Notes under the pieces: model-generated
Told to the model about the DNA's origin: nothing
The model's database searches: none
Seen by the model: the letters and a program-made list of their open reading frames with translations, nothing else
NCBI GenBank assembly: GCA_902727985.1
Contig: CACVAY010000117.1
Span: 16,064-80,063 of the forward strand
Source: an uncultured Thiotrichaceae bacterium
GTDB lineage: Bacteria > Pseudomonadota > Gammaproteobacteria > Thiotrichales > Thiotrichaceae
Reading direction: 5' to 3'
Length of the DNA: 64,000 nt
Translations under genes and position numbers: made by a program
In this document: piece by piece, positions 6,394-64,000 of the stretch
Layout of the letters: every line of letters begins with the position of its first letter
Position numbering within the stretch: the stretch's first letter is position 1

Positions 6394-9300
6394 TTACTTC
6401 ACCTCAACCTCATAACTCACATGGCCTCCATCGCCACCTTTCAGGGTATCCGTAGGTAAAAATGACCAAGTGATATCATCTCCGTTCACACTGGGTGTGC
6501 AGCTTGTGAGAGTTGCAGGTAAAGGTATTCCACAAACGGGTGAATTCTTAAGAACCGTATAGATAGGAACAGTATCTTTGATGACCAATTCCGTCAGCCC
6601 CGCTGTTCCCGTGTTGCGATAGTAAATACGATATTTGAGTACATTTGTCGGCTTAGCCTCATTCTGCGTTTCTGTCTCTGCTGTCCCTTGCGACGTATTT
6701 TCTACTGTCTTCCTTAACTCCAATCTCGACACCCCACCTTCTGTATCAGCACTATTCGCTTTGGTTAGATCAGTGACTTCAAGTGTCATTACCCCCGCTA
6801 CTGTATTGCCATTAAAATCATAATCCGCACGGATTTTATTGATAAAGCTTTCCCCGTTACTCATATTCGACGGTGCAAAAACCTTATTGATCAAACAAAT
6901 ATCTTTCCCTGCTGTAACCGGTAAGCTCGCCGCAATAGCTGCATTACCATCTGCCCCATCTAGCTGACCATTACAGTCTATATCGCGATAGAGAACACTT
7001 GACCAACCTACGCTTGCAGGTACTGAATTATCAGACGTAAAGCTGACATTTCCGTTACCTCTAGTTGTGAATTTATGCGCATAGTGGACGACATTATTAG
7101 GCAATACAGTATTGCTATGGTCTGGTGAAAACATTGGCGGTAAAACATCACCAAAATCCTGCTTAATGATGTCGGCATTGCTAACCGTAATGGAGCGCAT
7201 ATTGACAGTAGTAGAGCGATACCCTACCAAATCTCGTGCCGCAGGAGGGCATTGTGCAGGATTTGCGACTGACTCATTAGCAGCTTCGTACAGTGTATAA
7301 GGGCCAGTCGTCACATCGGTAAACTGGTAATAGCCTTCAGCATCTGTTTTCGTACTCATGCAACGAGTATTAACGGCATCATACAAAACAACAGTTACAT
7401 TACTTAAACCATTCTCAGCACTTTCCTTAATACCACCACTCACATTGCTATCATTAAACACCGAACCACTGACCTTCACACCCTCCACTACCGTAAAGGA
7501 ATAATCCTCTACTTCGCCATCAAATAATGCCACCTTGGCATTGTCAGCGGTAAGATAGGCATCAGTTGAAAGTCGAATACGCATCCAGATTGTCCCTGCC
7601 TGGATCGTTCCAGCAGCGATATTATCCCACACCAACTCTTTAACCCCACCACCCCCTGAAGTAACGGGTACAGATGTCGCTTCATTCGCGTCAAATGTTC
7701 CACTCTTATCAAAGTCTATCCATGCCATTAAGGTAGCATCTTCTGTTGAGCGATTATGCGTTGAAACATTCACCTGAAAACGCGTATCGAGCATACTTAA
7801 AGAGGGTAACAACTGAATACCATCCTCATCATTTTTTCCATCTTGGTCGTCACCCGTGCCGTCATTGCCCCCATTCACGGTATTTTGTGGGAACCTCTCT
7901 GTATCTGGAGTAAGCACCCCTAAATACACTGTTGGTGTTTCTGGAATCCCATGACCTGCATCACCATAGGTATCTGGTGCATCTCCATAATCAAACACAG
8001 GCTTCAAACCAATATCCAATGTCAAATTTGAAAAGTCATCATTGGTGGTATCTGTAATACCACCAGAATTTTCCCCTAATGGCTCATTACCAACAGGAAC
8101 TTGTCCTGGCAATGGTGCCGTTGCAGACAAGGTAAATACATTGCTTCTTAAACCATTGGCAATCACTGTTCCTGTGGTGTAACCATCCTGAGCAAGATCC
8201 TCATTCTTATCATCATCAGCGCCTGCCACAGTAACCAGGGTATCCCAATCCTCAAGCACAGCGCCATCCGCAAATTGTGACGCAGGGATAGTAATGTAAT
8301 AGTCACCTGATGCCACATCAACGAACAAATAACGCCCGGGACCTTTTGTTCCGGTTGTCGTGGAATCCACTAAGGAGTCATCAGTGGCTTTGCGTAATTC
8401 AACGGTAATTCCATCAGGTGCTGGCGTATCAATACTTGCATCATATTTTAAATCCCCATCCACATCAGCAAAGATCAAATCCCCCACTGAATAACTTGCC
8501 ACATCAACTCTTACCGTATTAGAACGCAAATACTGCCCTCCTGTTAAAGACGCAGTTCCTAACGTAAACAAGTTACTGTAGGAATCACCAGGTTTATTGG
8601 CATTAGCTGAATTTGGATCGGTAGGATCTCCGATATCAAGTGTAAAACTGGCAGTCATGCCCTGATGTGGATCTCCTGATTTTTCCAGATCATAATTCGA
8701 GACAAACTTGATCGCTGTAACTTGACTGAAATCCCCCGCCAGAGCTGCTTCGCTGACCCAATTACTGACATTCAAATTAGGGTCGCGTATGACAGATGAT
8801 GCAGCATCTGTGGTGTAATACCATGTTCCTAATGGGGCTCCATCAGTCGCGCCTGATAACCAACTAATCGATGGTGCACCAGATAACTTAACAGCCCCAT
8901 TGGTTTTAGTCTGTACTGTTATTCCATCAGCTTCAACATCATTGTTGAAGGGAAAAACATCAATAATCGTTGGCGGTTCAATTCCATAAGAAACAGCAAA
9001 GTTGGCAAATGACAACTCATATTTCTGTTGGCTGTTGACATCATCCAACGTTACTTCAACCTTCTTGGAAACTTGAATAGAGCCTATTTGTTCAAGACTA
9101 ATCGTATGCGTATCACTTCGTTCCGTCTGTGTGCCTGTTAAACCATCCCCCTTAATTTCAGAGAAGTTAATCACATCAGTGCCATTAGGTGCCAAAGAAT
9201 CACTATCCGTACAAATCACTCTTGGTGCTATTGCGGTATTAGCAGTCCATGTGCCTAAATTCCAGATCAAGCGTGTATACCCTGTTTTCGCATCACCATT

Positions 9301-11829: not shown

Positions 11830-12198
11830 CCTCTACTGATCAACCTTCACCTTGTAATTAACAAAATCACTCTCACCTGTTGTTGATTACACAAATCGCA
11901 GTTCCAGAAACCGTTGGCAGATTAGCTCCTACTGGCGCACTACCTTCTGCACCATTCAACGTTCCATTACAGTCTGCATCCTGATAAAGAACTTGTGTCC
12001 AACCTGTGGTGCTTAGGATTGAATTAACGCTACTGAATGTCACTGACCCCGTACTTTGCGGTACAAATTCATGCGTATAGAACACCACGTTACCAGGCAA
12101 AACAGTACCGACATTATCAGGCTTAAACGTTGGGACTTTTACATCACCAAAATCAATAGCTGGCACATCGTTATTCACCACTGTCACCATGGCCCGGT
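11830..12198 (-). pseudogene. DUF11 protein C-terminal relic with internal deletion
   Basis: Frame 11873..12208 matches the C-terminal part of the 2763-aa protein (DFGDVKVPTFKPDNVGTVLPGNVVFYTHEFVPQSTGSVTF). It jumps from ...AICVINN to a GESDFVNYKVKVD-like terminus readable at ~11835-11880. Confidence 0.75.
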
Positions 12199-14201: not shown

Positions 14202-14537
14202 TCAATCGTCCAGACACAGACCCGCTTCATAAGAGGTGTCGCCCCACTTGCATTGCACATGCTGCTTGATGCGCAGCTTCATATCACTCATGAAAACACC
14301 GCAAGACCCACCCCGCGCTCTTGCACGTAACTGAAAAAAAACATTTCCAGCAATTCGGTTATGCCGTTCTCCAGCACCAGCCATCGCATAAACCTCACCT
14401 AAAACATATTCATGGCGAAGCTCTGCTGACCGCTCTCCTTCAAGATACTCTTCAGGGGACAATACGGGTTTTGAGTGTTGTCCAGACATAATGCTATCCA
14501 GTTCTTTTAATGGGGACTTCTCAACGATATAAGTCAC
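14202..14537 (-). pseudogene. Uma2 family copy 2, internally deleted
   Basis: N-terminus nearly identical to 5683..6273 up to MSDMKLRI, then directly joined to HVQCKWGDTSYEAGLCLDD, losing the catalytic middle. Confidence 0.85.
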
Positions 14538-15654: not shown

Positions 15655-15725
15655 CAAGCCACATCCTCATAGATGTCATCAAGGCACAGACCCGCTTCAT
15701 AAGAGGTGTCGCCCCACTTACAATG
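15655..15725 (-). pseudogene. Uma2 C-terminal fragment (copy 4)
   Basis: accaagccacatcctcatagatgtcatcaaggcacagacccgcttcataagaggtgtcgccccactt closely matches the 3' ends of Uma2 copies 1 and 2. Confidence 0.7.
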
Positions 15726-15876: not shown

Positions 15877-18800
15877 CTAATCGACCTTCACTTTGTAATT
15901 GACATAGCCCGTTTCACCCGCCTGCAATGCGTCATTCGCTGGGAAGGTCCAGCGGATATCGCTACCAATAACAACAGGCGTACAGCTGATCAAGCTATTA
16001 GGGAGTGGCGTTTCGCAAGTGGGGCTTCCGACAATGGTGGTAAACTCAGGAACCACATCATTGATCACTAACTCGGTTAATGGTGCAGAACCCGTATTCT
16101 GATACTGAATACGATACAACAACTCATCACCTGGTTTAGCACCATTTTGCGTAGCGGTAACCCCCGTATTCTGTGTCACATTCTCTACCGTTTTGTACAA
16201 CTCTAATCGTGAAACGCCGGATGTTTCATTACTCGCCGCAGCTGTTGTCAAATCGGTCACAGTAAGTGCTATCGAACCCGCTGTCGCATTGGCTGGATCA
16301 CCGAAAGTAAAGTCCGCCGTAATCACGTTCGAGTAATCTTCACCCGAGTTGACATTACTAGGCGCATAGACTTTGTTGATCACACAAACCGGATTACCGA
16401 CACCCGCCACAATCACATCACCCTCAATCTCGGCATTGCCCTCTGAACCATTTAACTCACCATTACAGTCCGTATCTTGGTAGAGCACTTGTGACCAACC
16501 CGCTGTTGCTGGTGTGGAATTGGCGCTCGTAAACGTCACCGTACCCGTACTTTGCGATACAAACTCATGCGCATAGAGCACGACATTGCCGGGCAACACC
16601 GTTCCCACATGATCCGGCTTGAAGCTCGGCTCTTTTACATCACCAAAGTCAACACCCGTAATATCAGCGTTGCTGACGACAAAGGATGAACTCACATTAT
16701 CCGTCGTTGAGCGATAACCTTTTGGATCTCGTGCATTAGCAACACCACAGTTAGTGGGCACTGGCACGGTTTCACGCGAAGCCTCGTAAACCTGATAGGT
16801 ACCCGCTTCAACATTATCGAAACGATAGTTACCCTCGGCATCGGTTCGCACACTCTGACAAGTCGCGCCATCAAATAACACCACCGGCAAACCGCTCACA
16901 CCTATTTCAGTTGAATCATTGACGCCATCGACATCGGTATCGTTATACACACGACCTGAAACGGAAACACCTTTGGTCGTAATAGATAACGCGTAATCTT
17001 CAACTTCACCATCACGTTTTGCTCCACCTGGTTCGGTATTGCTAATGCTATCCGTGGTTAATCGAAGACGCATGTACGTATCACCTGCCGAAATATCGAT
17101 GGGAATAACCGACCATTTCAATTCAACATCAGCAGCCGATGCGCCAGCAGAAATCGTACGAATTGCCACTTCATCCGCATCAAAGGCACCATTGCCATCA
17201 AAGTCAATCCAACCCATTAAGGTCGCTGCTGAGCTTGTGACATTGGTTGTTTTCACTGTGACCGCATAGGTTCTGTCATGCGCATTTAATACTGGCAAGG
17301 GTAAGCTCACACCCTCCTCATCAACACCATCATCATTAGCAGCAATCGAAGGCTGACCATCAGTATCCACATCTGGTTTTACACTACCTAAGTACACATC
17401 ATTTACAACATCATGGCGCGCACCATCAACCGCTAGCTTTGTCAGATAATTATCGGGGGCATCACCATAATCCTGGCCTGCAACAATGGCCACTGCCGAG
17501 AATTCGGAGGTACCTGTTCCAGACACGGTTGCAGTAGCTGTCAGCTTGTCGTTCAGTTCAATGTTGGTGCCTGCTGGCAAGCTAGTGAGCGCAAACGTCT
17601 GACTAAAGGCCAACATGCCGCTTGGGTTATTACCATCCGCATCGGTACTCATAGCACAAGCTGTTCCACTTGCAGGCATGACCCATGATGTCAAAAACAC
17701 CTCACCCTCGCCATAATCCTGGGTTTCGCCGAACTGGTTACTACCCGCCGCAACGACCGAGACCGACGTTGGCGAGACATCCGCCTCAAACAACTCTATG
17801 GTCGCTCCGGCCGGTGCACAGCCGCTGATGATCAGGTTGCTACCAACCAGAATACTCTGCTTAAATTGTGGGAAGTTAAGCAGGCTGTTGGCACCAGTAT
17901 CGACATCATTAGCATCGTTATTGGTGACCTCATTACCCCTAAGGTCGATTCCGAGCCCGGTATTATTGAAGATCTGGTTTCTGGAGATGGTGACCAGGCT
18001 CGTTGAACTACTGACCTGAACACCAGAGGCCAAGTTGCTGTGAATGGTATTGCCGGAAATCGTGGCTGCCGCACCACTCTGAATCAGGATGCCACTATAT
18101 CCATTAACGGAGTCCTGCGAGTTATTAGCAACGATATTACCCTCGCCTGCTCCCAGCCCACCGATGACATGTCCCGCACCACCGTCTATCCTTACCCCCC
18201 AAAAGCCATTACCAATCGCTGTAGTACCATCAATCCCGACACCGATTTTATTACCTTGGATGGTCATATTGCTCATACTATAGAGTTCAATACCTGACCC
18301 CTGATCTGAGCCAGCGATCACGTTGTTACGAATGATCCACCCTTCATTATCCTCAGCAATGATCAGATACCATTGGTCTGTACGATCCAGCAGTCCCGTA
18401 GCATCCGTTCCAAGCAGATTGTTCTCGATGAGCACATTGTTCGTAGTACCGTAAAATCCGCCCAGCTCGAATCCATTGCCAGAGATCACGTTATTACGGA
18501 TGATTTCTCCATCTGAGACGATGTTGCCGGTATAGCCCGCAAAGCTGATACCTGAACCAACATAACCGCGCCCATTGCCGACCGACGTGTTGCCATCCGC
18601 CGCGATGCCAACATAGTTCATGTCGATGATCACATCATCAATGGTGCCCTCCATCCAGATACCGTCATTCGTGTTTGCGCCAACTACATTCATACCGCTG
18701 ACCGTCGCATCACCAATATCGGCACTAGTTACGCCGTTAAGCACGATGCCCTTGTGATTGTTTCCGGCGAGCGCGATTCCATTAGCAGCAAGGCCAATAT

Positions 18801-21800
18801 GGTTACAGGTGGCAGTGAAATTTGTGCTGTTATCGGCACGCAGACCATCGCTGTCGAAATTGCCAATTGAGAGACCTTTGACCGTCACACCATCCGCCGA
18901 ACCGATGGTCAAGCCATCAGCCGTTGCTCCGGTTCCGGCATTGGTGCCATCAAGAGCAACCAGGACCGAACGATCAGTGATCGCGCCATTCGCGTCGCGG
19001 ATGCCTCCGCAGGATGCGCCCGACTGTGTCGAACCATCCACACTGACGGCATCATCGGTAATGATCGGTAACACGGTGGCCGGTTTGATCACCACCACAC
19101 CTGCGGTAGTCAAATCCAATGTCGTATGACTCTCAGTACCAACATAGGCACTGCCATCCGGCACCATAAAGATAGACGTTTCCTGACCTGCATTAATCCC
19201 CTGATTCGGGATATCAGTGAGCAGATTGCTGTTGAGGATGAATTGGCGTAATGAACCCTGTCCGCTGTCATTAGTATTGACAATGGTGTCGAAGTTAAAG
19301 CCGAAGTCGATGCCAGCGATGTCCGCTCCCGCCACCGTCACTGGTTGCAGGGATTGCACCGCACCACCACCCGACAACGCAAAGGTCGTGGCATTCAGCG
19401 TTTCCGCACCACCGTTAGCCGTACCATCGGCCACGGCTGGCTTGCGCCCGCCGACTTCGCCGGTGACGGCAGTCGTACCATCCGTGCGGAAAGTCTGCAC
19501 CCCCAGTTCGGAGCCATTCGCGCCGGTACGGGTCGAGCTGACTGTGTCACTCACCACGCGCACATGGTAGTCACCATTCGTTAAACCGGCAAATTCGTAA
19601 GCACCATCGTTCGTGCCATCATTTGCTGTTGTCGTTGAATCACGCAAAGCGCCGGTATTGTCATAAAGCTCAACCGTTACGCCGTTTACTCCCACACCAG
19701 AAGCACTACTCTGATCTCTTCCAGCGCCGCCGCCATAGTTAATATCTTCAAAGACGATGCCGTTTAACTTATTCGCCACAATCAAACCAATCGCCGAGAA
19801 TTCGGAGGTACCTGTTCCAGACACGGTTGCAGTAGCTGTCAGCTTGTCGTTCAGTTCAATGTTGGTGCCTGCTGGCAAGCTAGTGAGCGCAAACGTCTGA
19901 CTAAAGGCCAACATGCCGCTTGGGTTATTACCATCCGCATCGGTACTCATAGCACAAGCTGTTCCACTTGCAGGCATGACCCATGATGTCAAAAACACCT
20001 CACCCTCGCCATAATCCTGGGTTTCGCCGAACTGGTTACTACCCGCCGCAACGACCGAGACCGACGTTGGCGAGACATCCGCCTCAAACAACTCTATGGT
20101 CGCTCCGGCCGGTGCACAGCCGCTGATGATCAGGTTGCTACCAACCAGAATACTCTGCTTAAATTGTGGGAAGTTAAGCAGGCTGTTGGCACCAGTATCG
20201 ACATCATTAGCATCGTTATTGGTGACCTCATTACCCCTAAGGTCGATTCCGAGCCCGGTATTATTGAAGATCTGGTTTCTGGAGATGGTGACCAGGCTCG
20301 TTGAACTACTGACCTGAACACCAGAGGCCAAGTTGCTGTGAATGGTATTGCCGGAAATCGTGGCTGCCGCACCACTCTGAATCAGGATGCCACTATATCC
20401 ATTAACGGAGTCCTGCGAGTTATTAGCAACGATATTACCCTCGCCTGCTCCCAGCCCACCGATGACATGTCCCGCACCACCGTCTATCCTTACCCCCCAA
20501 AAGCCATTACCAATCGCTGTAGTACCATCAATCCCGACACCGATTTTATTACCTTGGATGGTCATATTGCTCATACTATAGAGTTCAATACCTGACCCCT
20601 GATCTGAGCCAGCGATCACGTTGTTACGAATGATCCACCCTTCATTATCCTCAGCAATGATCAGATACCATTGGTCTGTACGATCCAGCAGTCCCGTAGC
20701 ATCCGTTCCAAGCAGATTGTTCTCGATGAGCACATTGTTCGTAGTACCGTAAAATCCGCCCAGCTCGAATCCATTGCCAGAGATCACGTTATTACGGATG
20801 ATTTCTCCATCTGAGACGATGTTGCCGGTATAGCCCGCAAAGCTGATACCTGAACCAACATAACCGCGCCCATTGCCGACCGACGTGTTGCCATCCGCCG
20901 CGATGCCAACATAGTTCATGTCGATGATCACATCATCAATGGTGCCCTCCATCCAGATACCGTCATTCGTGTTTGCGCCAACTACATTCATACCGCTGAC
21001 CGTCGCATCACCAATATCGGCACTAGTTACGCCGTTAAGCACGATGCCCTTGTGATTGTTTCCGGCGAGCGCGATTCCATTAGCAGCAAGGCCAATATGG
21101 TTACAGGTGGCAGTGAAATTTGTGCTGTTATCGGCACGCAGACCATCGCTGTCGAAATTGCCAATTGAGAGACCTTTGACCGTCACACCATCCGCCGAAC
21201 CGATGGTCAAGCCATCAGCCGTTGCTCCGGTTCCGGCATTGGTGCCATCAAGAGCAACCAGGACCGAACGATCAGTGATCGCGCCATTCGCGTCGCGGAT
21301 GCCTCCGCAGGATGCGCCCGACTGTGTCGAACCATCCACACTGACGGCATCATCGGTAATGATCGGTAACACGGTGGCCGGTTTGATCACCACCACACCT
21401 GCGGTAGTCAAATCCAATGTCGTATGACTCTCAGTACCAACATAGGCACTGCCATCCGGCACCATAAAGATAGACGTTTCCTGACCTGCATTAATCCCCT
21501 GATTCGGGATATCAGTGAGCAGATTGCTGTTGAGGATGAATTGGCGTAATGAACCCTGTCCGCTGTCATTAGTATTGACAATGGTGTCGAAGTTAAAGCC
21601 GAAGTCGATGCCAGCGATGTCCGCTCCCGCCACCGTCACTGGTTGCAGGGATTGCACCGCACCACCACCCGACAACGCAAAGGTCGTGGCATTCAGCGTT
21701 TCCGCACCACCGTTAGCCGTACCATCGGCCACGGCTGGCTTGCGCCCGCCGACTTCGCCGGTGACGGCAGTCGTACCATCCGTGCGGAAAGTCTGCACCC

Positions 21801-24168
21801 CCAGTTCGGAGCCATTCGCGCCGGTACGGGTCGAGCTGACGGTGTTACTCACCACGCGCACATGGTAACTGCCATCCAGTACATTATTGAAAGTATAACG
21901 ACCATCGGCTGCGGTGGTGGTAGTGCTGGCTAGATTGCCACTGGCATCATACAGTTCCACAACCGCCGCCGTAACTCCTGCACCACTGGCGGTTGCAAGA
22001 TCACGACCTGCGCCACCCCCATAGTTGACATCCTCGAAGATTGTGCCGGTCAGGTCATACCCAGGGTCAACCAAGGCAGGCTCATCTAACCAACACGCTT
22101 TTTGCAAATTTTTAGAGGCCCCTGTGGCTGCCGCAAAACCAAACCTAACATACGAACTGCCGAAATAACTGACTAAATCACGGGTGACTGAAGCAAGTTG
22201 AACGCCATCAAAATAATAGGTGAAATTTTGCGTAGCGGGATCCCAGACATAGCGGGTAATGTGGTATTTGCCATCTTCAATTTCTCCACCGGCCCCAATG
22301 GCTACCGCACTTAACAGTGTATTAGCCGGATCAGGTAAAGCCACATCACCATTCAGATAGATGCCCGTATGATCAGCAGCCAAATCACCGGTAAAGCCAC
22401 TGATGTTAGTATTGTCAAAGGTATCGAATTCAATGGTGACAGACGGATAGACTGCTCGGTTGTTCAAACCAGACGCACTTAGATTGATATCACCGTCTAC
22501 TCCCATGTAGCCTCCGTTATAGCCTTGTGCAGCCGTACCGCGTGGATCATTTTGTAGAATAAAGGACAGCCCGTCTGCCCCTGCATCAAGACCCGTACTG
22601 GGGTCGATGCCTACATTAGAACCCAGATAAACACCTAATTGAATATCAAAGGGTTGACTTAGATCTATTTGGTCATTTGACCAAATAAAGCCAGACTTGA
22701 AGTTCGCATCATCGGTCAGAACATACTCATTATTAGCATTGACGTAAGCATCGCCCAGTGTAGTCACTGGTACGGCAACACAGGAAGAGACCAAACTATT
22801 GATCGTGACAGCATAATCCTCGACCTCACCATTGGTGGCAGCCGCCGTACTATCCAGTCCTTGCGTGGTTGACCAGCGGAAGCGGGCGAAGGTCTGAGAG
22901 GTGATTGCACCTGCAGGTACAGTCACTGCAAAGGCAATCGTTCCAGCGGTGGCATTAGTATCAAGCCCACCACCATCCTGCAAATCAGAGGCGATTTGCT
23001 CACCTGAATCCAGAAAATCACCATCCCCATTCCAGTCTATCCAGCCTTGCAAGTAGCCACTTGCGCCGTTTACGGTTGCCGTAATCGTTGCAGTTTCACC
23101 TCTTGTCAACGCTGGAATTGTGATTCCGTCCTCGTCGTCACCCTGTCCATCAACATCATCGCCATTGGCTGTGGTGGTTCCTTGCGTAGCGGCATCCGGG
23201 TCTGGTGGTGTCGAACCAAGATAGTGTGCACTGGTGAACTGTACTGTTGCCATGGTCAGTGAAGCAATGGACGTCAGCGCCGAGGGCTGAGACCCCCCCG
23301 TTGCTGTTGCGCCATTATAATGTGAAGCATCAGGCATACCCGCAGCATCACCGTAATCAAAGGGAATGAATACGCCGAAAGCGAGTGCATCCCGACCGAT
23401 CTGTGATTGCAGGTTGACATTAAGAGTCGTTACATCCTCTGTCAGCGCTAGTAGTGAGCCGCCACCTGCATTTGGGAGTTCACTCATGAAAATCGTACGA
23501 TTAGCATTGGAGAATTGCACATCAAGCGTGCCCGATGCCTCGATAGGGCGCCATTGTGAGCCATCCGTTGTCCAGCTAGCATTTTCATCGGCATTGCCGG
23601 TATCTTCTGCCTCGGCTACAACGATATCCGCCGGGATAGGACTGCCGTTCAGTGTGGCAGAGAAGGTGACGTCAAAGTCAATGCCGCTTGAGTCGGTCAC
23701 TGATACGTTGCCAAGACCGATGGGGTTTACACCGCCATAAAGTTTATTGAGTGTGTCACCCCACCAATCCCCGCTATTGTAGGGAAGCAGATCGCCATTG
23801 CTTATATTGGAGAGCGTAGCCGTGATGATGATGCCACTGCCGACATCCCAGCTTTTGGTGACCACATCCCCAGCGTTAAACTGTGTATTCGCACCGCAAG
23901 ACCAGTCAAGCCAGAAGATCGAGTCGCGGAATTGCCCCGTTCCCGAACTGGCATAGCCAGATCCATTACCTGCGCTCTCTGTGCCGCAACTTACAGCAGC
24001 AGCAAAGGCTTTAGTGCCTGGCATAAGCAGCATAAGAAGGATGATAAACAAGGCCGCCTTCGGAAGGCCCAGCCCGTATTCCTTTTTTTTGGTTTTACTG
24101 TTTAGTATCGCCTGCAATGTAGATCGTAACCAACGGCCAAGCGCCAAAATATTATTATTCATAGTCAA
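15877..24168 (-). CDS. Giant secreted adhesin-like protein (2763 aa): GEVEDY domains, L-type-lectin-like domain, duplicated SdrD-B + parallel beta-helix units, terminal DUF11 domain
   Basis: GEVEDYAVTI and GEVEDYALSI; lectin-like ADGLSFILQNDPRG...VTIEFDTFDN; repeated beta-helix text (VIRNNVISGNGFELGG...); terminal YKVKVD. Confidence 0.85.
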   Translation of the reverse strand: MTMNNNILALGRWLRSTLQAILNSKTKKKEYGLGLPKAALFIILLMLLMPGTKAFAAAVSCGTESAGNGSGYASSGTGQFRDSIFWLDWSCGANTQFNAGDVVTKSWDVGSGIIITATLSNISNGDLLPYNSGDWWGDTLNKLYGGVNPIGLGNVSVTDSSGIDFDVTFSATLNGSPIPADIVVAEAEDTGNADENASWTTDGSQWRPIEASGTLDVQFSNANRTIFMSELPNAGGGSLLALTEDVTTLNVNLQSQIGRDALAFGVFIPFDYGDAAGMPDASHYNGATATGGSQPSALTSIASLTMATVQFTSAHYLGSTPPDPDAATQGTTTANGDDVDGQGDDEDGITIPALTRGETATITATVNGASGYLQGWIDWNGDGDFLDSGEQIASDLQDGGGLDTNATAGTIAFAVTVPAGAITSQTFARFRWSTTQGLDSTAAATNGEVEDYAVTINSLVSSCVAVPVTTLGDAYVNANNEYVLTDDANFKSGFIWSNDQIDLSQPFDIQLGVYLGSNVGIDPSTGLDAGADGLSFILQNDPRGTAAQGYNGGYMGVDGDINLSASGLNNRAVYPSVTIEFDTFDNTNISGFTGDLAADHTGIYLNGDVALPDPANTLLSAVAIGAGGEIEDGKYHITRYVWDPATQNFTYYFDGVQLASVTRDLVSYFGSSYVRFGFAAATGASKNLQKACWLDEPALVDPGYDLTGTIFEDVNYGGGAGRDLATASGAGVTAAVVELYDASGNLASTTTTAADGRYTFNNVLDGSYHVRVVSNTVSSTRTGANGSELGVQTFRTDGTTAVTGEVGGRKPAVADGTANGGAETLNATTFALSGGGAVQSLQPVTVAGADIAGIDFGFNFDTIVNTNDSGQGSLRQFILNSNLLTDIPNQGINAGQETSIFMVPDGSAYVGTESHTTLDLTTAGVVVIKPATVLPIITDDAVSVDGSTQSGASCGGIRDANGAITDRSVLVALDGTNAGTGATADGLTIGSADGVTVKGLSIGNFDSDGLRADNSTNFTATCNHIGLAANGIALAGNNHKGIVLNGVTSADIGDATVSGMNVVGANTNDGIWMEGTIDDVIIDMNYVGIAADGNTSVGNGRGYVGSGISFAGYTGNIVSDGEIIRNNVISGNGFELGGFYGTTNNVLIENNLLGTDATGLLDRTDQWYLIIAEDNEGWIIRNNVIAGSDQGSGIELYSMSNMTIQGNKIGVGIDGTTAIGNGFWGVRIDGGAGHVIGGLGAGEGNIVANNSQDSVNGYSGILIQSGAAATISGNTIHSNLASGVQVSSSTSLVTISRNQIFNNTGLGIDLRGNEVTNNDANDVDTGANSLLNFPQFKQSILVGSNLIISGCAPAGATIELFEADVSPTSVSVVAAGSNQFGETQDYGEGEVFLTSWVMPASGTACAMSTDADGNNPSGMLAFSQTFALTSLPAGTNIELNDKLTATATVSGTGTSEFSAIGLIVANKLNGIVFEDINYGGGAGRDQSSASGVGVNGVTVELYDNTGALRDSTTTANDGTNDGAYEFAGLTNGDYHVRVVSDTVSSTRTGANGSELGVQTFRTDGTTAVTGEVGGRKPAVADGTANGGAETLNATTFALSGGGAVQSLQPVTVAGADIAGIDFGFNFDTIVNTNDSGQGSLRQFILNSNLLTDIPNQGINAGQETSIFMVPDGSAYVGTESHTTLDLTTAGVVVIKPATVLPIITDDAVSVDGSTQSGASCGGIRDANGAITDRSVLVALDGTNAGTGATADGLTIGSADGVTVKGLSIGNFDSDGLRADNSTNFTATCNHIGLAANGIALAGNNHKGIVLNGVTSADIGDATVSGMNVVGANTNDGIWMEGTIDDVIIDMNYVGIAADGNTSVGNGRGYVGSGISFAGYTGNIVSDGEIIRNNVISGNGFELGGFYGTTNNVLIENNLLGTDATGLLDRTDQWYLIIAEDNEGWIIRNNVIAGSDQGSGIELYSMSNMTIQGNKIGVGIDGTTAIGNGFWGVRIDGGAGHVIGGLGAGEGNIVANNSQDSVNGYSGILIQSGAAATISGNTIHSNLASGVQVSSSTSLVTISRNQIFNNTGLGIDLRGNEVTNNDANDVDTGANSLLNFPQFKQSILVGSNLIISGCAPAGATIELFEADVSPTSVSVVAAGSNQFGETQDYGEGEVFLTSWVMPASGTACAMSTDADGNNPSGMLAFSQTFALTSLPAGTNIELNDKLTATATVSGTGTSEFSAVAIVAGQDYGDAPDNYLTKLAVDGARHDVVNDVYLGSVKPDVDTDGQPSIAANDDGVDEEGVSLPLPVLNAHDRTYAVTVKTTNVTSSAATLMGWIDFDGNGAFDADEVAIRTISAGASAADVELKWSVIPIDISAGDTYMRLRLTTDSISNTEPGGAKRDGEVEDYALSITTKGVSVSGRVYNDTDVDGVNDSTEIGVSGLPVVLFDGATCQSVRTDAEGNYRFDNVEAGTYQVYEASRETVPVPTNCGVANARDPKGYRSTTDNVSSSFVVSNADITGVDFGDVKEPSFKPDHVGTVLPGNVVLYAHEFVSQSTGTVTFTSANSTPATAGWSQVLYQDTDCNGELNGSEGNAEIEGDVIVAGVGNPVCVINKVYAPSNVNSGEDYSNVITADFTFGDPANATAGSIALTVTDLTTAAASNETSGVSRLELYKTVENVTQNTGVTATQNGAKPGDELLYRIQYQNTGSAPLTELVINDVVPEFTTIVGSPTCETPLPNSLISCTPVVIGSDIRWTFPANDALQAGETGYVNYKVKVD
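17495..19542. repeat. Large direct repeat, copy A (~2048 bp)
   Basis: Starts gccgagaattcggaggtacctg. Frame-track ORFs inside are identical to those of copy B at a constant 2298-bp offset. Confidence 0.95.
19793..21840. repeat. Large direct repeat, copy B (~2048 bp)
   Basis: Same sequence as copy A offset by 2298 bp. Divergence begins at actgtgtcactc versus acggtgttactc. Confidence 0.95.
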
Positions 24169-25510: not shown

Positions 25511-28213
25511 TTATTCCAATCTAATAGAAAAATCTAGCACCATTTGCTGCCCTGATTGCAAAGTAATCGATGCTCCGCTAACGCTCCCCGCTGCAATTGA
25601 GCCATCATCCCCAGCAACCCCACCAGTGATATTTCCATGCGTTGTTGATGCTGTACCGAAGAAACTTGTAAATACAGGCGCGGCATCATTGATGCGAACA
25701 TTATTGACGGGGGTAGAGCCTGCATTTGTCGCAGTGAGACGATACATAACACAGGATTGCGCGGGTACGGAGAAGGTTGATGAGCTATACCCTCCTTCAT
25801 CAACACCATTACAATCTGAGTCCAATGCTTGGGTTTTTACAATGTTTACATCCGCAGTACTGGCTGTCGTAATATCCGTTACATTGTCAGTAACCGCTGT
25901 ACCTGTACACGTTGCAGGGTTGCTATCACCATCGTCTTGATTACCTGTTACCGTAAGGGTAGTGGTATCAATACTACCAAGCGCCGCATTTGCAGGGGCA
26001 AACATCTTCACTAATATCGGGAAACTAGCACCGACTGCCAATGTTTGGTTTGTTAGTAAGGTATCGTCACTATCTAAAGCGCCATCATTGTTAACGTCTA
26101 AATAAATGACACTTGACCAGCCTGTCGTTGTATTGCTGCTCGCGACATCCAGACATTCTAGTGGCGTATTACCATTGTTGAAGATGCGATGGTTGTAAAC
26201 CACGGTGCCACCTGGCTCGATATTACCCACCTGATCAGGCTCAATGCCTACAGAAGGCTGTACCGAAATAACCACTGCATCAAACTTGATATCTTCTGCA
26301 TTGTTAGCACTTGAGAAAACCCGGAAGTAGATTGGATGCACCACACCATTACCACTAGCATCTACCGGTGTATCAACAGCCGCACATAGTTGCTTATTTC
26401 CTGCACCCGCTATATTTCCCGTCGCCGTAATTTCTGCACCGAGTGTAGAACAATCACCACTTCCACCGTCCCTATGGAATGTTACGTTCCAACCAGAATC
26501 CAGGCTCCCTGCAACAAAAGGCTTTTCTTTACTGTATTCCAAAATGTAATTGCGAACTTCCGTACCTTCATTGTTCACGTTCAACAAGAATACCGCCTGC
26601 TCGCCTGGAGCAACGGTCTTGGTCGTGACGGGTGAGCTCGCACTCTGCACGGTATCGTTTCCTGCCCCCAGGGTATTAGCTACATCGTTGGTTAAATCAA
26701 CAGTTTCAGCAACAATTGTCTGTAAATGATCAGTCACGGTATTGAAAACACTGCTATCAATTGAGGAGGTAGCCGTTTTAGTGACATCATAACCAGTTGA
26801 GCCCTCTTCTCCAGCAGGCAAGAAAGCTTTCAATACGACGGTGTAATAGGCATTAGGCTCTATCGGGCCAGTATCTTTTGTACCCTCACCATTAGTATCC
26901 AGCAAGGGGGTAAAACCATCGGATTTGAATAGCTGAAACACAGTTCCAGTTGGGAAAGTGTCGTTTGCAGTATCAATCGTCATTTCGAAGGTATCGACAG
27001 TATTACCCTTATTCCAGATAATATTGTTAAAACTCACAATAGAGCCTTGTGGGGCTGTCGCAACCGTGACCGATTCTCCTACTCCATCGGTAGCGTCTGT
27101 TATAGAACCGTTGGCTACCACTCCTGGCACTTCGAGCACTTCGAATGGCACTTTATTAGTGGGTAGTGGCGTAGAGCCACCATCGTAAGTGTATTCAGCC
27201 GTGTTATAGAGTATTTGTGCTTTCAAGTCAGACTTGATATTTACATCAAATGACAGTGTTCCAGAATCTCCTGCGGGTACGGAGGCAATAATCGCAGTGA
27301 GCTGAGTGGTACTATCCGAGCCTGTATTTTCAGCACCTTTTAGCAACCCCGTACAGCTTGCATCATAGGCACAGAAAATAATGGTATCGCCACTGCCCTG
27401 GCTATCTGATGGGCCAGCATCTGTTAACGCTAACGCTGATTCAACACTCCATTCACCGGAATTGCCTGCATAGGTCATTCCTGCAGGTAAAGCGTCGATC
27501 AAAGTAACGTTTGTTGCTGTTTGCGCACCGTTGTTGACATAGGACAAGGTGACTTTGTAAGTACCACTGGGTGATGCTCCTTCTGAGCCTGAAATGCTTT
27601 TAGTCACATCGATAACAGCCTGATCTGTCACTGTGACCTTATCAATATTGGTCTTTTCTTCTTCATCAGGAAGAAACTGACTTTTACCCTTTACTTCAAT
27701 ATCTCCCGTTGTACCTACACCGGCTCCTACAGGTACTTCGGCAGCGACCACAAAGTAGAATGCTTCACCTGCAGAAAGCAGATCTGTTTCTGTGATTGAT
27801 GTTGTTGAATCAGCAACACCATCACGGTTTTTATCTGCGTAGATTTGAAAACTACTAAAATCGTAACCATCGCCTGTTTGGTTAATAGCCGATAAGGTGT
27901 AGGTATCCTCCCCATTACCCGTATTCGTTAAGACATGTGGGAAATAGATGGTATTTCCAGCTGCGCCCTGTTTCTCCTGATTTTGAATCAGGTCCAGTGC
28001 GCCAACCTGTTGAATAACGGTTTCAACAATATTTGACGTTGCAAACTGGCTAACCCCCCCCGCATCTTTATAGGTTGCTGATGCCTGATTCTGGATCAAT
28101 GTGCCTGCTACAGGAGATGCAGCATATGCCATCATCGAGAAAAACATACTCAGCATGAGCAAGGCACTTAAGAATGGTTTATTGTTATTATTCTTCTTCA
28201 TGTTAGCAACCAA
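25511..28213 (-). CDS. Secreted DUF11 repeat protein (900 aa)
   Basis: Signal peptide; SPVAGTLIQNQASATYKDAGG...GNTIYFPHVLTNTGNGEDTY module; DUF11-like repeats; ends MVLDFSIRLE. Confidence 0.85.
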   Translation of the reverse strand: MVANMKKNNNNKPFLSALLMLSMFFSMMAYAASPVAGTLIQNQASATYKDAGGVSQFATSNIVETVIQQVGALDLIQNQEKQGAAGNTIYFPHVLTNTGNGEDTYTLSAINQTGDGYDFSSFQIYADKNRDGVADSTTSITETDLLSAGEAFYFVVAAEVPVGAGVGTTGDIEVKGKSQFLPDEEEKTNIDKVTVTDQAVIDVTKSISGSEGASPSGTYKVTLSYVNNGAQTATNVTLIDALPAGMTYAGNSGEWSVESALALTDAGPSDSQGSGDTIIFCAYDASCTGLLKGAENTGSDSTTQLTAIIASVPAGDSGTLSFDVNIKSDLKAQILYNTAEYTYDGGSTPLPTNKVPFEVLEVPGVVANGSITDATDGVGESVTVATAPQGSIVSFNNIIWNKGNTVDTFEMTIDTANDTFPTGTVFQLFKSDGFTPLLDTNGEGTKDTGPIEPNAYYTVVLKAFLPAGEEGSTGYDVTKTATSSIDSSVFNTVTDHLQTIVAETVDLTNDVANTLGAGNDTVQSASSPVTTKTVAPGEQAVFLLNVNNEGTEVRNYILEYSKEKPFVAGSLDSGWNVTFHRDGGSGDCSTLGAEITATGNIAGAGNKQLCAAVDTPVDASGNGVVHPIYFRVFSSANNAEDIKFDAVVISVQPSVGIEPDQVGNIEPGGTVVYNHRIFNNGNTPLECLDVASSNTTTGWSSVIYLDVNNDGALDSDDTLLTNQTLAVGASFPILVKMFAPANAALGSIDTTTLTVTGNQDDGDSNPATCTGTAVTDNVTDITTASTADVNIVKTQALDSDCNGVDEGGYSSSTFSVPAQSCVMYRLTATNAGSTPVNNVRINDAAPVFTSFFGTASTTHGNITGGVAGDDGSIAAGSVSGASITLQSGQQMVLDFSIRLE

Positions 28214-28260
28214 TTTTATGATTTTATAGAGAGATAAAACTCTCTTTCTCTTTATTATTC

Positions 28261-28292
28261 ATCCCCTCAACAACTCATAGGGTTGAGGGGAT
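28261..28292. terminator. Hairpin between the OmpA-like and 900-aa genes
   Basis: atcccctcaac-N-gttgaggggat followed by ttttt on the plus strand (A-tract before the stem on the minus strand). Confidence 0.5.
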
Positions 28293-28300
28293 TTTTGTTC

Positions 28301-28897
28301 CTATCGTACAGGAGAAGGTGCAATAAACGGAGAACTCTCAGGACGAACTTTCAATGCCATAGGACGCCCATCTTCATCCAATAACATCATCTCCACGCGT
28401 CGATTGATTTGACGATCTTTCACCGAGTCACCCAAAATAGGTAACTCCTCACCCAGTGCAGATACAAGAATACGATTATCTGCAATACCCATCGTATGCA
28501 AGTAATCCACAACCATTGCCTCTCTCCGTGTCGCCAAGCTTTTGTTGTAACGGGTACTGCCTTTTTGATCCGTAAATGATTGGATATTGACTTTGGCTTG
28601 AGGATATTTTTTCATAATGGCAACATTCTGTGCCAATCGCTTGGTTTCTTGAGCATTTAGATTTGATTTATCAAAGCCGAAATATACCGCAGGCTCCCAA
28701 TGTAAACCCTCCATATCCACTTGCTTTATCTTCACGACTTCTTTGATGACTTGTTTTTCCACCACTTTCTCAATAATTTTTGCCTTTGGTAAATCGCAAT
28801 TCTTATCATATTTGGCAAATAATTCATCATTCGTGGCACAACCACTGAATGATATCAAAGCGACCGAACTGATGAATGTTAAGGTTTTATTATTCAT
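28301..28897 (-). CDS. OmpA-like domain lipoprotein
   Basis: Lipobox-like SFSGC; OmpA C-terminal-like NIQSFTDQKGSTRYNKSLATRREAMVVDYL...RQINRRVEM. Confidence 0.88.
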   Translation of the reverse strand: MNNKTLTFISSVALISFSGCATNDELFAKYDKNCDLPKAKIIEKVVEKQVIKEVVKIKQVDMEGLHWEPAVYFGFDKSNLNAQETKRLAQNVAIMKKYPQAKVNIQSFTDQKGSTRYNKSLATRREAMVVDYLHTMGIADNRILVSALGEELPILGDSVKDRQINRRVEMMLLDEDGRPMALKVRPESSPFIAPSPVR

Positions 28898-28987
28898 TAT
28901 TATTTCCTTTTTAACCGGTTTACCCACATCACTCTCTGTATTTATCAAGAGATATGTTGAGCAAGCACATTGGTTACTAAATGGTTA

Positions 28988-31900
28988 TTATTCTTGTTCA
29001 CTGAGCCATTCAAGACTATTTTCATCAAACTTATATTGAAGACCTAAATACGCCCCTTCTTTGTTATATTCTTGCGTATCCAGATCATCTTCTTTAAAGC
29101 CAATGACATTATATCCAACCCCTATCCGTAGATTCTCACGCACGAGGTAGTTTGCTCCCAATCCCAAGGAATACTGTTGTTCAGCCAGCCCGTCAGTTCC
29201 AAGAACACCACCATGTATATCTACATCCCAACGTTTGTTAACATCCCAAATTACTCGGCCATCAAACAACAAGGCATCAGCCGTTGCACTAACACCGCCT
29301 TTTTCGCATGTTTCAGCTTTACCACCAGCACGACCTGAAATAAGAATATCTTCTTTAATTTCATAGTTCTGATGTGTTGATAGAATATGCGCGGTACAGT
29401 CACCTTCGGTCTCATTGCCACGTTCCAATTTATTCTCGTAGAAGAACAGCATATTGTGTTTGTTGTTTGTACGAGGACGATGCGACAAACCTACAGTGAA
29501 TGTACTTGTAGTATGCGTTTCTCCTGTCTCAGGGTCATCAATACGCAGTGATTCACGCACTAGTCCACTCCAATCCTTGTTGATTCTCGCCACATACGAT
29601 CCTTCGATACCATAGTAAATGCGATCATCATCTTTACGTGCTTCCAGGCGACCTAGTTTGCGATGGTTACTATCACGCGCATCTTTTAAGCCCATTGAAA
29701 TAGCGACTGAATCATTGCCATCACCTTCAAGGTTTTTAACAAGCTCTACACGTGGTGAGACTGACAGGCCCTTTTCTAGCTCGTAGGTTCCACGAATACC
29801 GGAAGCCGTTTCAAGATCACGTCCATCGGTCACACCGCGTAAACGATATTCTGAGTAGAGTTCTGTTGACTTAAATACATCCGACTTCACACCAATCGAC
29901 AGGGTATCGCGCTCATCAGTGATACTTAATCCCCCCACACCCGTCAAACTATTGATCCGTTCTGCACGTCCGTACACATGAATATGCTCATGCACCTCCA
30001 TTTCCCCCCCGAGAGAGATACGCTTACGATCTGAGCGACCAATATCTTGCTCATATTCCGTGCTGATATTACCCGCACGCCCCAGTAGCTCAATAGGTCG
30101 TTTTACACCAACGATGAAGGTTGTGAAACTATCACTATCAGCGGTATTTTTCTGACGAATATGACGCGTACCCGCCTTAAGTGTCCAGTCGCCTTGCTTA
30201 ATATTTGCACTGATACCCGCACTTTGTTCAGTCGCCTTCGTATCCACAGCTTTACTGCTTATCGCATCAAGCTCCACTGACACCTTGTCGTTGATTTTCT
30301 CTTTATGAGTCATGCGAACTTCTTCACGACCTTCCGAGATACCACCTGACTGGTTATCGAAACCGACATCCGCTCTTCCATAGCTGAATTGGGTGCTTGA
30401 ATTACTCCACTTCTGATCTACACCAATACGCAATGCCTCACCATCCTGCTTAGTTGCATCCTCATGACTCATCGTCGCAACACTGGCTGTAACACGGGTA
30501 TTGTTGGACTTATACTCACCGCTGATACCCGTGATGGTATTTCCATCCACTGAATTCTCATCTTGCGTATGGCTAACCCCTACATTCAGCTCATCCGTTA
30601 CTTGATGATTCAAACGCACACCTGCCATTAAATAGTCATTACCGTTATTTTCTACATCATAACTAACACGAATGTATACCGGATTGAAGTTTTCGTCTTG
30701 TGCCGGAATAGAATCCGTAAAGCTTAAATCGCCCGTTTGATCATCGAGGATATAGTCACCGAATCGTGTTAATGGCTCAACACTCATAACCACACCTGGG
30801 TTATCACGGGAAAAGGTTACAATTTCTACAACTTCACTATTACGAACAATCGGGTATCTATCAATACGATAGTTAAATGCTGTGCCTTGGCCACGAATTT
30901 CCTCAGTCAGATGATTTTCTTCTAACTCAGCAGCAAAGACCTGTAAACGCGTTTTTCCGTCATCGATAATGGCATTTGCGCCCGTCAAACTACGTTGTAC
31001 ACGCGCGACATTTTCCGTTTGCTGATAAGAATCTGTTAAGTAGTCCCCCCACATAACGCTACTCTTATCTTTTTCAAGCTTCGCATACACTTTGCTGCGC
31101 GATTGCGCCTCATAACCACGACGAGAGTCATCTCCATAAATGGGGTAAAAGCTATTCGGGTTGATATCACGGAAGCGCTCACCATCACTATCCTTATCCG
31201 TATCGATAGACATCGTAAGATGCCTATCACCTTTTACTTTGCCTTTAAGGAAAACGGCCGCGCGACCGTGTAATTTCACCCTGTCACGCTGGCTGTCTGG
31301 CGCATTATCGCGATCATCAAAGCCGATGTTCTTATTGCCCCGAATATCAATAATACCTGCTGCAACCAAGGGTCTAAGGGGTGCTACAAACGTAATGTCT
31401 TCCGTCACTTTTAGCCCATTCATACTGGCACGAATCTTAATATCTCCCGTGTGTTCAGAGCTTCTCAAATGAACAATGCGTTCACCATTGGTAATACGTA
31501 CCTGTTTACCGGGTGTTTTATCCTGAATATCACGCTCTACAAACGATCCATCTGTAGCTTCAAGCGTGACGAACTGCACACCACGTGCAGGATAGTCATT
31601 CTTATCCCTGATTTTGATTTTCACTGGTAAATAGGAGCGTCCACCATCTGCTGCAAGCTGGTCTTTCTCTAGCTCAAAACTGATAGATTCAGGTCGATCA
31701 GGGCGTTTGAAGGTATGCTTTGCCAAGGTTCTCATATTGCCAAATGGATCTTTTGCTGCAATTTCGACAATATTTTCACCAGGCTGAAGTTCTACGCCGT
31801 ACCATGCAACCACTTGCGCTTTTTCCCGTTTGTTTGCAATGCGCTCACCGATTTGCTGGTTAGACACAGAACGTCCATTCACAACCAACGTAGGTGTTAG

Positions 31901-34900
31901 ACCACCACGCACCACAGCCATGAAACGTCCATCTAAACTCGTGTCACCTGTTGGCCAGAGCCATTTGCCTGCTTTAGCTTCTTTGCGAGTGACAGTCTTC
32001 ACCACCTCTTGCGCTCTGGGCATCGGAATTGAACCAATGGGCGCTTCCAGACGGTCAATCACTGCCATCGGCAACCGCTCGTATACCGTTGATTCACGAG
32101 TCGTGGTGATATTGTTCGCTTTCAGCCGAGTTTGCAGCGCATCCAGCCCTTTTTTTCTCAAACTGAATCCCAATCTGACGGTATGAAAATCGCCTAACGG
32201 ATAGATGTACGCTTCATTTCTAAGCCCTTCGGGCAACTGATTCAAGGTAAACTCGGCCGCAGATTTAGTTAGAAACTTTTCAAGCTGCAAGGCATAGCCC
32301 CGTGCAATCATGGCTTTATTTTTTATGTGATTCTGCTGACTGGAACCGCCATTCTGGCCTTCAGCGTTGAAACCAACGGTACCATTCGATAAATCGCCAT
32401 CAGCCCCCGTTTTACGACGCAGGTCATCAACCACATAACTACGGTTCGGATCATACTTTTCTGCATTTTCTAGCATCCAATCAGTACGTCCCATGTTTCG
32501 TGCTTTAATTTGATCATAGACATATTGCACATCTTCTTTCGGACAAGATGCCACAAAATCAGCACGGTGGAATTCACCTTTCACCATGTCAACCAAACGA
32601 CTGCCCGGATCTGCCATATGACGATTATCTGTCGGCTTTAATGACAAGCCATCGGGAAGTGTGATGGGGTCAACCTTAATAACATGATTACCTGGCTCGA
32701 TACCATACAAGCTGTATTGACCATTACCATCGGTAATGACCCAAGTACCATTTTCCATATACAGCTTTACGCCCCCGATTGGCCATTCACCCTCGCTCTG
32801 TTTATCGTCACAATCGGTATCAACAAAAACTTTACCAAAGACGATACCATTGTTGGCTAATACGCCATCTTGAGCAATGCTTACTGTGGCACGTGATGTG
32901 TTTGAAGTAATCAGCGCAGACGTTAAGGAAGCGCCTGTGGCAACCACCGAGTTGGTTCCATCACCGTCAATTGCTCCTGCTGATACGCGCACTTTATACG
33001 TCAGGACATGAGGTTCACGATCCAGTACACCATCAGCTTCACCCTCAAGAAAGGGGAGATTGACGAAGTGTAGGTTAGGCCCTGGCGCACCAACAGGATC
33101 TCCAACCAATTTCCCATCCAAAAAGGTGGTGTCGTTCACATAACGGAAGCCATAGGGTAGAGTATCTTTCAATGAAACGGCATACAGTCTTTGTGGCGTT
33201 TTATTCTCGATTTTAACACTATAGGTTAAAAACTCACCAACCCCTACCTCAGAGTCTTCGGCACTCTTCGTCAAGATCAAGGTATCCCCAAGACCAGGAT
33301 TAAACAGTAATGCTGGATCTGCCGGCACATCCACAACCAGTGGTGGATCACCAGCACTCAGAGTAAATATCCCTGTATTGGCTGGAGTACCTTCATACCC
33401 TTCTTGACCATAAGAATATTGGTTGACAACGCGATCAATGAAAGCTTCGGGAGGGATTGTACTGGGTACTGAGTACCCCGCAGGGGACGTTACATCAATA
33501 TAATAATCACCCGCATATAAGAAGGGGAACTGGTATCTGCCATCATCGGCTGTGGTTTGTACCTCATAAGGCAAATTGGTAATAGGATCTAAAGCCACTG
33601 TACCATCCGCATTACGCACAATGACTGTCGCACCTTCCACAGGAGTATTAAATACTGAATCAAATACTACACCCAATGGATCAATCAATGCCGCATCAGT
33701 GAGTACCGTTCCCGTACCAGGCTCAGCACCAATAGTACGCACCTCTAAACCACCATCGGGTGAACCTTGAATAACACAGTTATTATCTGATGATGTGTAA
33801 TCAGGTGTACTTGCTGCAAACGGGCATGTTCTGCCAGCCCCCTGATCGCTTGCAGATAAACGTATTGGACTCAAATTACGAAAAACACCTGTATTTGGGC
33901 CTGTTTCCAGCATTTTTACAATTAAAGTATCTCCAGTTTTGGAAATCACTTCTACAGAGTAACTATCAACCGTATCTATATCTGTGTTATAGGCACTTGA
34001 GTGCATTTCAATATATACGCCATCCATAGTTGGATCATAAGGTCTAATACCATTGTCTAAAGCATAGTAGGTGGCATCCTCAAGATCAGTTGTACTTGCG
34101 AAATCTGGAGCCTCTCCATCCCGCTTGTTGCTAAGACTTGGCGTTAAAAAAAGAATCTCAGCATCATCACCCGAGCCACTTGTTTCCCCTGTTCCAGACG
34201 TGACTTTGTCGGCAACCACCGTTGTACATACTTCATTACTGGTGAAGTCTTTCTGAGTATCATCGTTAAACTCAAAATAAGCCTCATTGAGAATGATACT
34301 GGTCGTTGGATTGCTATCAACAACCACTGAAAATTCCAACTTGCCACTTTGGTTACTATCCAATTGCTCAACCGGAATATATAGGCCCACTTTACTGATG
34401 AGATTTACGCCATCCCAGTTAGAAAAACGACTCCAGCGGTTGGTATCTTCATCGCTTTTAAGTTGCACAAGCGGAATCGCTTGTGACGGTGCGAACACAA
34501 TTTCTGTCGTATTTCTTAGGGTCGTATTCGGAGGAATAACATTCTCTAGTACTGCGCCCGCAATCGCAGTACCGTCAATTTCGTATGCTCTTGCTATGGG
34601 TCTTTGTGACCCCGTGTTAGTAAAACGAATGCCGTAATCTAGCGTTTCTAAAGCACGTACGGCTGAGCCACAGGCGGGAAGAACACTATTGTAGATCGTA
34701 AGATTAGCACCTATAACGATATCTACAACATCGGTATTTTTTACAATCATTTCTGGGTGCCCCAAAGGCTCCACAGTGATATCCACATGATGTAATTCGC
34801 CAGCTTGTTGTGTTGGCTGTGTTTGCCCAACAATAACGAATCCAAATAAGCGGCCAGGCAGCACTTCAGGCAGCAAGTAACAAGTACTTCCTATCGTCGC

Positions 34901-35344: not shown

Positions 35345-35487
35345 GTTGTTCACCACTTTATTATTCTTTTTATTTATTAATAACTTAATGACAACGATAG
35401 ACATCAGCATTAGTTATGATTTTTGCGAACGTACTTTTTATATAACTTCATAGTCAATACACACTTCCTAACACTCAAGGAAACATA

Positions 35488-35646
35488 ATTGATCATGTCA
35501 ATTTAGCCCGCACAACTCTCAGTAAACTTGAGGAAGGTGACAGTCGATTGTTGTCAAACCGGACTTCAAACTTACTGAGAGTTATGCGCAACTACATTGA
35601 TATTTGCTTGGCAAAGCGTCAGGGAAATTCATACGACTTTCCCTAA
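35488..35646 (+). pseudogene. Relic of an XRE-type HTH regulator (HipB-like) C-terminal part
   Basis: Plus-frame translation IDHVNLARTTLSKLEEGDSRLLSNRTSNLLRVMRNYIDICLAKRQGNSYDFP* looks like helix 3 onward of an XRE HTH domain; no N-terminus remains. Confidence 0.45.
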
Positions 35647-35649
35647 CGC
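35616..35649 (-). terminator. Hairpin downstream of the 985-aa gene
   Basis: GCGTCAGGGAAA-N10-TTTCCCTAACGC, one mismatch, immediately downstream (minus strand) of the 985-aa stop. Confidence 0.55.
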
Positions 35650-35679
35650 CTAGACTTACATTTACTGCCTAGCTAATGA

Positions 35680-39743: not shown

Positions 39744-39854
39744 GATCAAGTCTAATTTCTTTGGAATCGGAACTTTACTCCCGCCCTTCGTAGTTTATTT
39801 TCAATATGTTAGGCGAGGCTAAAGCCTCGATTCCAATATTGTTTGGACTTGATC
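39744..39854. repeat. MITE-like element, ~111 bp, with imperfect terminal inverted repeats
   Basis: GATCAAGTCTAATTTCTTTGGAATCG at one end and the reverse complement of GATCAAGTCCAAACAATATTGGAATCG at the other; internal palindrome CGAGGCTAAAGCCTCG. A partial inverted copy lies at ~63820-63873. Confidence 0.6.
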
Positions 39855-40080
39855 GGGGGTTCCATAAAGAATCTAACTGGCAGAACAACTTACGTTTTTC
39901 CGTATTGCCTATAAAAATGTGACCTCATAGAATAGCTATTTCGCTTCTTTCAAGAGAATTCTGAAAAATTACGCACAATTTTCTCACGCCATCCTTTCGT
40001 GCAAAGGGCTCATACTGTTAGTATTCCTGCTTTATATCTCTGCTCAATACATTCACGACTTTTAGTGCCCCCAAAAAAAC

Positions 40081-44425: not shown

Positions 44426-44530
44426 TAATCTCTCTCTGATTATAGACCTTAGTCTATTTTTTACAATAGGTTATATTGGGTTTATAAAGTAAACTAGCAA
44501 CTAAACACACCTTCTCACATAAAATGACAG

Positions 44531-63636: not shown

Positions 63637-63819
63637 TTTTCTTTCCTCAGTTAAGTTAATCTTACTTAAGCAACACCTCGGACAGTTTTCAGTATGAAAC
63701 ATACTTAAAACTTGTAAGATGTTGACATTTAATAAGTTTTCGTTTTTATGTGAAAATACAAATATCATTATAAAACAACAATTTAAAAAAAATGTCCGAA
63801 GTATTGTTAAGGAGCCTCT

Positions 63820-63997: not shown

Positions 63998-64000
63998 CTC

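Follow-up and report, generated by a model that had tools for sequence, protein, structure and literature searches.

The window analysed here, a stretch of 64,000 nucleotides from a contig of an uncultured Thiotrichaceae bacterium, contains an open reading frame of 2763 amino acids in which one block of 2048 nucleotides, hereafter R, is present twice. The locus raises the question of how two such copies came to lie in the same gene, and how far the deposited sequence can be trusted as to their number. The explanation that we favour, and consider quite probable, is that tandem SdrD_B + beta-helix units recently underwent homologous recombination of the RecA type with one another, which left R in at least two copies.

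As judged from its domains, the 2763-aa product most likely functions as a modular adhesin and is secreted, both adhesion and surface location being deduced from this architecture. It begins with a signal peptide (read from the sequence), CshA_NR2, GEVED, an L-type lectin domain, SdrD_B1 and a beta-helix (R), and continues with SdrD_B2, the second beta-helix (R), another GEVED, SdrD_B3 and a conserved DUF11-type C-terminus. Pfam returned CshA_NR2 (PF18651), two GEVED domains (PF20009), the L-type lectin (PF18483), three SdrD_B domains (PF17210) and two beta-helix regions (PF13229), all above the curated cut-offs, confirming an earlier description of the repeat unit as SdrD-B plus beta-helix; NCBIfam added a DUF11-type repeat close to the C-terminal end. 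The AlphaFold model, which covered a single unit (SdrD_B1 plus R), had a mean pLDDT of 65 (about 85 in the beta-helix core), and is consistent with a predicted beta-helix joined to SdrD_B. It matched SdrD and parallel beta-helix carbohydrate-active folds, the best usable structure match being the AlgE4 A-module, and profile comparison related the beta-helix of R to those of alginate C5 epimerases (E about 3e-5). No enzyme activity is claimed for the adhesin. Staphylococcal SdrD, a sortase-anchored MSCRAMM, has an LPXTG-type C-terminal signal, whereas the 2763-aa protein contains no LPXTG-type sorting signal and ends in ...YVNYKVKVD. Same-genus genomes match mainly its C-terminal third. A literature search on Thiothrix adhesins found nothing specific.

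Direct comparison of the deposited sequence revealed zero differences between the two copies of R (Table 1), at a constant offset of 2298 bp (766 codons, in frame). The preliminary description had noticed this direct repeat of about 2.05 kb, its offset and its position inside the gene, all of which hold at 2048/2048 identical nucleotides; its copy A is the one that lies further downstream in the gene. It had also described a sharp step from diverged to identical sequence, and this too was found: outside both copies the identity falls straight to background, and the repeated 127-mers in the window are confined to the two copies. R consists of the last approximately 12 aa of SdrD_B and the entire beta-helix, so that its 5' edge lies inside SdrD_B and its 3' edge coincides with the beta-helix end. 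Immediately past the 5' edge, 21 bases (TACCATGTGCGCGTGGTGAGT) are still common to both copies. The 5' SdrD_B flanks as a whole are 58% identical at the nucleotide level (70 aligned codons), and their synonymous sites are apparently saturated, since the NG86 method gave no valid dS estimate for them (it returned -1). The comparison of divergence inside and outside the block, proposed earlier as a check, thus sets zero differences against a 58%-identical flank. On the 3' side, the upstream copy is followed by the linker IGLIVAN and then SdrD_B2, and the downstream copy by the linker VAIVAGQDYGDAP and then GEVED2; that is, a diverged linker and thereafter unrelated sequence. Across the 3.54-Mb genome, R had just one further match, 535 bp of a paralogue at 70% identity. 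As a separate observation, the third-position GC of R (17495-21840) is 0.56 compared to 0.32-0.40 in most neighbouring genes; it is 0.35-0.40 in GEVED2 and SdrD_B3 of the same adhesin gene.

Table 1. Features of the adhesin gene and its repeat (positions in the window).
Feature	Position	Strand	Remarks
Adhesin ORF, 2763 aa	15877..24168	-	ORF listing, translation, Pfam, NCBIfam
SdrD_B1, first ~72 aa	21841..22056	-	Diverged 5' flank of upstream R; 58% nt identity to SdrD_B2
R, upstream copy in gene	19793..21840	-	aa 777-1459; end of SdrD_B1 + beta-helix module; 2048/2048 identity
x, unique segment between R copies	19543..19792	-	250 bp; linker IGLIVAN (upstream-unit type) + first ~75 aa of SdrD_B2
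SdrD_B2, first 75 aa	19543..19767	-	5' flank of downstream R
R, downstream copy in gene	17495..19542	-	aa 1543-2225; end of SdrD_B2 + beta-helix module
Downstream-type linker VAIVAGQDYGDAP, GEVED2, SdrD_B3, conserved C-terminus	15880..17494	-	C-terminus common to many surface proteins of family

Whether such identity can be taken at face value depends on how the genome was assembled, which we judged from a sample of about 60 contig ends. One pair of contig starts overlaps by exactly 127 bp, the right end of the window, like three other contig ends, breaks off about 126-127 bases inside an element that these ends share, and SSU rRNA (16S) was not found in this 99%-complete genome. Because of these three features, the genome appears to be a k=127 de Bruijn short-read assembly. 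Short reads are unable to cross 2048 bp, and the arrangement flank-R-x-R-flank is therefore the shortest path through a loop in the assembly graph. Graph simplification in such assemblers can remove a few differences between copies. It should be underlined that the two copies of R are consequently a lower bound, and that neither their exact number nor their perfect identity is secured. At least two copies are supported, since the unique segment x joins R on both sides. The doubt raised in the preliminary description, that the repeat might be an assembly artefact, was justified in view of the assembly type. A control for collapse at contig ends in adhesin genes of relatives gave one suggestive case, in the uncultured Thiothrix genome, where the end of contig C34 and the start of contig C23 are 86% identical over 234 bp; the same control in the adhesin genes of Thiolinea disciformis gave no match to its own contigs.

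The ancestry of R was examined by comparison with relatives, with one genome per species. Among these were two members of the same family, G016 and G022 (genus code g7); the comparison set within the family also includes Thiolinea disciformis (L046 = G020), the uncultured Thiothrix (L045 = G009) and an uncultured Leucothrix (L044). The adhesins of G016 and G022 share modules, C-terminus and post-unit linkers with the window gene (for G016, approximately 57% of the amino acids are identical across the 3' half), and each has two diverged SdrD_B + beta-helix units in one gene, where internal comparison of the DNA gives about 70-74% identity over 300-560 bp. In both relatives the upstream unit closes with SAIGLVA, and the downstream one with SAVAIIAGQDYGDAP or SAVATIAGQDYGDAP. 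The linker order is the same in G016, G022 and the window gene, with IGLIVA after the upstream unit and the VAIVAGQDYGDAP type after the downstream unit, and the window gene therefore descends from a two-unit ancestor. In G016 and G022 these units are old and diverged, whereas the window gene has a single, seemingly chimeric block at both positions.

The two ends of R resemble different ancestral units. In the tree, the final 131 aa of R cluster with the G016 and G022 upstream units (support 100/100), and grouping with the downstream units was rejected (AU p=0.0013). Consistent with this, R does not have the 6-aa insertion that is present in all downstream and single units, and its 3' end carries the upstream-type FSQTFALTSLPAG segment. 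The downstream copy of R thus has an upstream-type 3' end that runs through to where the beta-helix stops, and a downstream-type linker follows at once. In its 5' part, by contrast, R shows the IPNQ...GYAGT-like indel pattern of the G016 downstream unit and of single-unit relatives, and not that of the upstream unit. In the tree of this part, an upstream origin was not rejected (AU p=0.097) and grouping with both downstream units was narrowly rejected (p=0.049); neither this tree nor that of the 75-aa SdrD_B flank is strong enough to decide by itself. A downstream origin of the 5' part is therefore suggested mainly by the indels. The middle of R is less similar to either unit than to a paralogue that the genome carries on contig C10, and further recombination events may thus have been involved. 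Taken together, R looks like a chimera with downstream-type indels at its 5' side and an upstream-type 3' end, occupying both positions. The first 75 aa of SdrD_B2 are 93% identical to the second SdrD_B of G016 at the protein level and 76% at the nucleotide level, with 41% third-position identity; recent horizontal transfer of this piece from a G016-like genome was rejected, given the low third-position identity despite 93% aa identity.

The absence of any difference beside a flank of 58% identity and the independently recognised chimeric ancestry of R are the reasons for proposing recent recombination between units: R is 100% identical beside the SdrD_B flank, its 5' edge lies in homologous sequence, and the downstream copy carries upstream-position ancestry at its 3' end. 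The ancestral gene had two old, diverged SdrD_B + beta-helix units with different linkers, as in the relatives. Recombination between them would have produced a chimera with a downstream-type 5' part and an upstream-type 3' part, which would subsequently have taken both positions to give the linear order R-x-R, bounded 5' within the SdrD_B homology and 3' where the beta-helix ends. The route may have been unequal crossing-over, gene conversion or both. An unequal crossover that duplicated a unit would leave a junction unit resembling R, that is, downstream-type in its 5' part and upstream-type in its 3' part; alternatively, two overlapping gene conversions in opposite directions could have generated it. 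Both routes amount to homologous recombination between tandem units. The earlier suggestion of recent gene conversion or unequal recombination is hence supported as far as recombination goes, by the lack of differences and the chimeric ancestry, but these two routes are indistinguishable. Its further proposal that only part of the unit had been homogenised is unneeded, since R-x-R is also the edge pattern of a tandem array with a 2298-bp unit (R + x), and the diverged beginning of SdrD_B in the first copy could be the edge of such an array. Changes in copy number may adjust the length of the protein, with the unit serving as a stalk or display module.

The alternative that best withstands these data is that the repeat as deposited is in part an assembly product, either because the copies differ by SNPs that were smoothed out, or because the true array has more units or a number that varies within the population. 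This is a serious possibility, to which we give slightly less than an even chance. The 127-bp contig-start overlap, the four ends about 126-127 bases into a shared element and the missing SSU rRNA all speak for it, as does the length of R, which is 16 times k, and in Yersinia ruckeri the repeat number of Ilm was understated 4 to 5-fold in short-read genomes (PMC6868369). Against it, the 250-bp x bounded by R on both sides needs at least two copies of R in some cell, and neither the edges nor the chimeric ancestry of R depend on exact identity. Smoothing, moreover, masks low divergence only, so that a recent origin of the R copies would still hold. An extended form of the array idea is that the locus is a collapsed macrosatellite of several identical 2.3-kb multidomain units, in which a chimera from an unequal crossover expanded and displaced its parents; we put this forward tentatively, as a rather unlikely but conceivable outcome.

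It is very unlikely that the R copies are kept alike by purifying selection, however strong, or by a recent import through horizontal transfer, and not by recombination within the gene. In favour of this reading are the third-position GC of R (0.56 versus approximately 0.38 in neighbouring genes) and a beta-helix part without a long match in any same-genus genome searched, but a transfer brings R once and leaves two identical copies with different linkers unexplained. Selection, for its part, would not hold the synonymous sites of about 680 codons free of differences, and the conserved SdrD_B, with 93% protein identity to G016, nevertheless has only 41% third-position identity. That R is a mobile or site-specifically shuffled cassette is more improbable still and was rejected on edges, reading frame and genome-wide matches: although the edges are sharp and the modules recur in many adhesins of the family, the edges have neither inverted ends nor a target duplication, the 5' edge falls within homologous SdrD_B with 21 identical bases beyond, R has no open frame of its own besides the adhesin reading frame, and its sole other match in the genome is the 70%-identical paralogue.

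Near-identical repeats within genes are established in bacterial surface proteins, with homologous recombination as the proposed source of variation (PMC9704523, PMC13339910). The Periscope Proteins (PMC9704523) are likewise of surface type with in-frame DNA repeats of very high identity, as R is with 2048 bp at 100%; the present case differs in its 766-aa multidomain SdrD_B + beta-helix unit, seen in two copies in one genome. Ilm of Y. ruckeri has more than 20 identical Ig repeats, each about 300 bp long (PMC6868369), and resembles our case as a Gram-negative adhesin whose DNA-identical repeats are misjudged by short reads, but it is built of many small Ig-like repeats, compared to one 2.3-kb unit in at least two copies here. 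CmbA of Limosilactobacillus reuteri contains an intragenic macrosatellite of approximately 290-bp repeats in 8-11 copies (PMC13339910); these perfectly identical tandem repeats within a gene are comparable to R, and earlier genome sequences had CmbA wrong (PMC13339910), but it is a cell-wall-anchored protein of a Gram-positive bacterium with short repeats. Amplifying such identical repeats by PCR yields ladder artefacts (PMC13339910). The R adhesin is thus of a known kind, and is set apart by its large 766-aa multidomain unit and its readable chimeric ancestry. In the adhesin loci that we read, from relatives and from other phyla, internal repeats of at least 300 bp were about 64-84% identical with one exception, an SdrD_B + beta-helix protein of Hymenobacter sp. 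BT18 (L061, complete genome) with 728 bp at 99.9%. This locus includes a 716-bp exact internal repeat (6596-7311 and 7658-8373), an independent case in a complete assembly.

Several other features were observed in the window. Upstream of the adhesin, 25511-38637 (-) encodes a 985-aa DUF11 protein, a 2140-aa protein with SdrD_B/DUF11 and a porin-like part, a 215-aa OmpA-like protein and a 900-aa DUF11 protein. For the 2140-aa and the 900-aa protein, relatives adjoin an SdrD_B + beta-helix adhesin in Thiolinea (L046: 44% and 43%, respectively) and in two Acidobacteria MAGs (L051, L052: about 29% and 38%), and the genes at 25511-38637 may form a cassette, so far undescribed, by which adhesins of this type are secreted or anchored. 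The final approximately 540 aa of the adhesin (GEVED, SdrD_B3, DUF11-like end) are found again, throughout the family, in several different large proteins of each genome, and the window has this region at 16000-17500 and 6394-8000 (-); it is a candidate for a family-wide C-terminal sorting or anchoring region; an out-of-frame remnant of a third copy lies at 11879-12187 (-), beside a 1774-aa gene. A 35-bp exact direct repeat (14215-14249 and 15685-15719) is located just beyond the 3' end of the adhesin gene, and 18-bp periodic repeats (44143-46791) lie in and around the ORF at 45820-47178 (-). An interspersed repeat of about 70-80 bp, found at 63806-63884 and 39790-39867, has around 35 copies genome-wide with 78-97% identity, on both strands and across contigs; an Rfam search of the window gave no match. 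The contig end at 63874-64000 lies inside an element with hairpin-like inverted sequence, common to the ends of contigs C25, C32 and C90, which is possibly the end of an insertion sequence.

R serves as a warning that the lengths of giant adhesins in draft genomes are lower bounds, and if the locus is indeed a collapsed macrosatellite, adhesin length and beta-helix dosage would differ between cells. Little work has been done on the surface proteins of the host group, which consists mostly of filamentous sulfur bacteria. In this group, R is a clear example of an adhesin module, multidomain and very large (766 aa), that has undergone concerted evolution, and for which the relatives reveal which parts probably stem from which ancestral unit.
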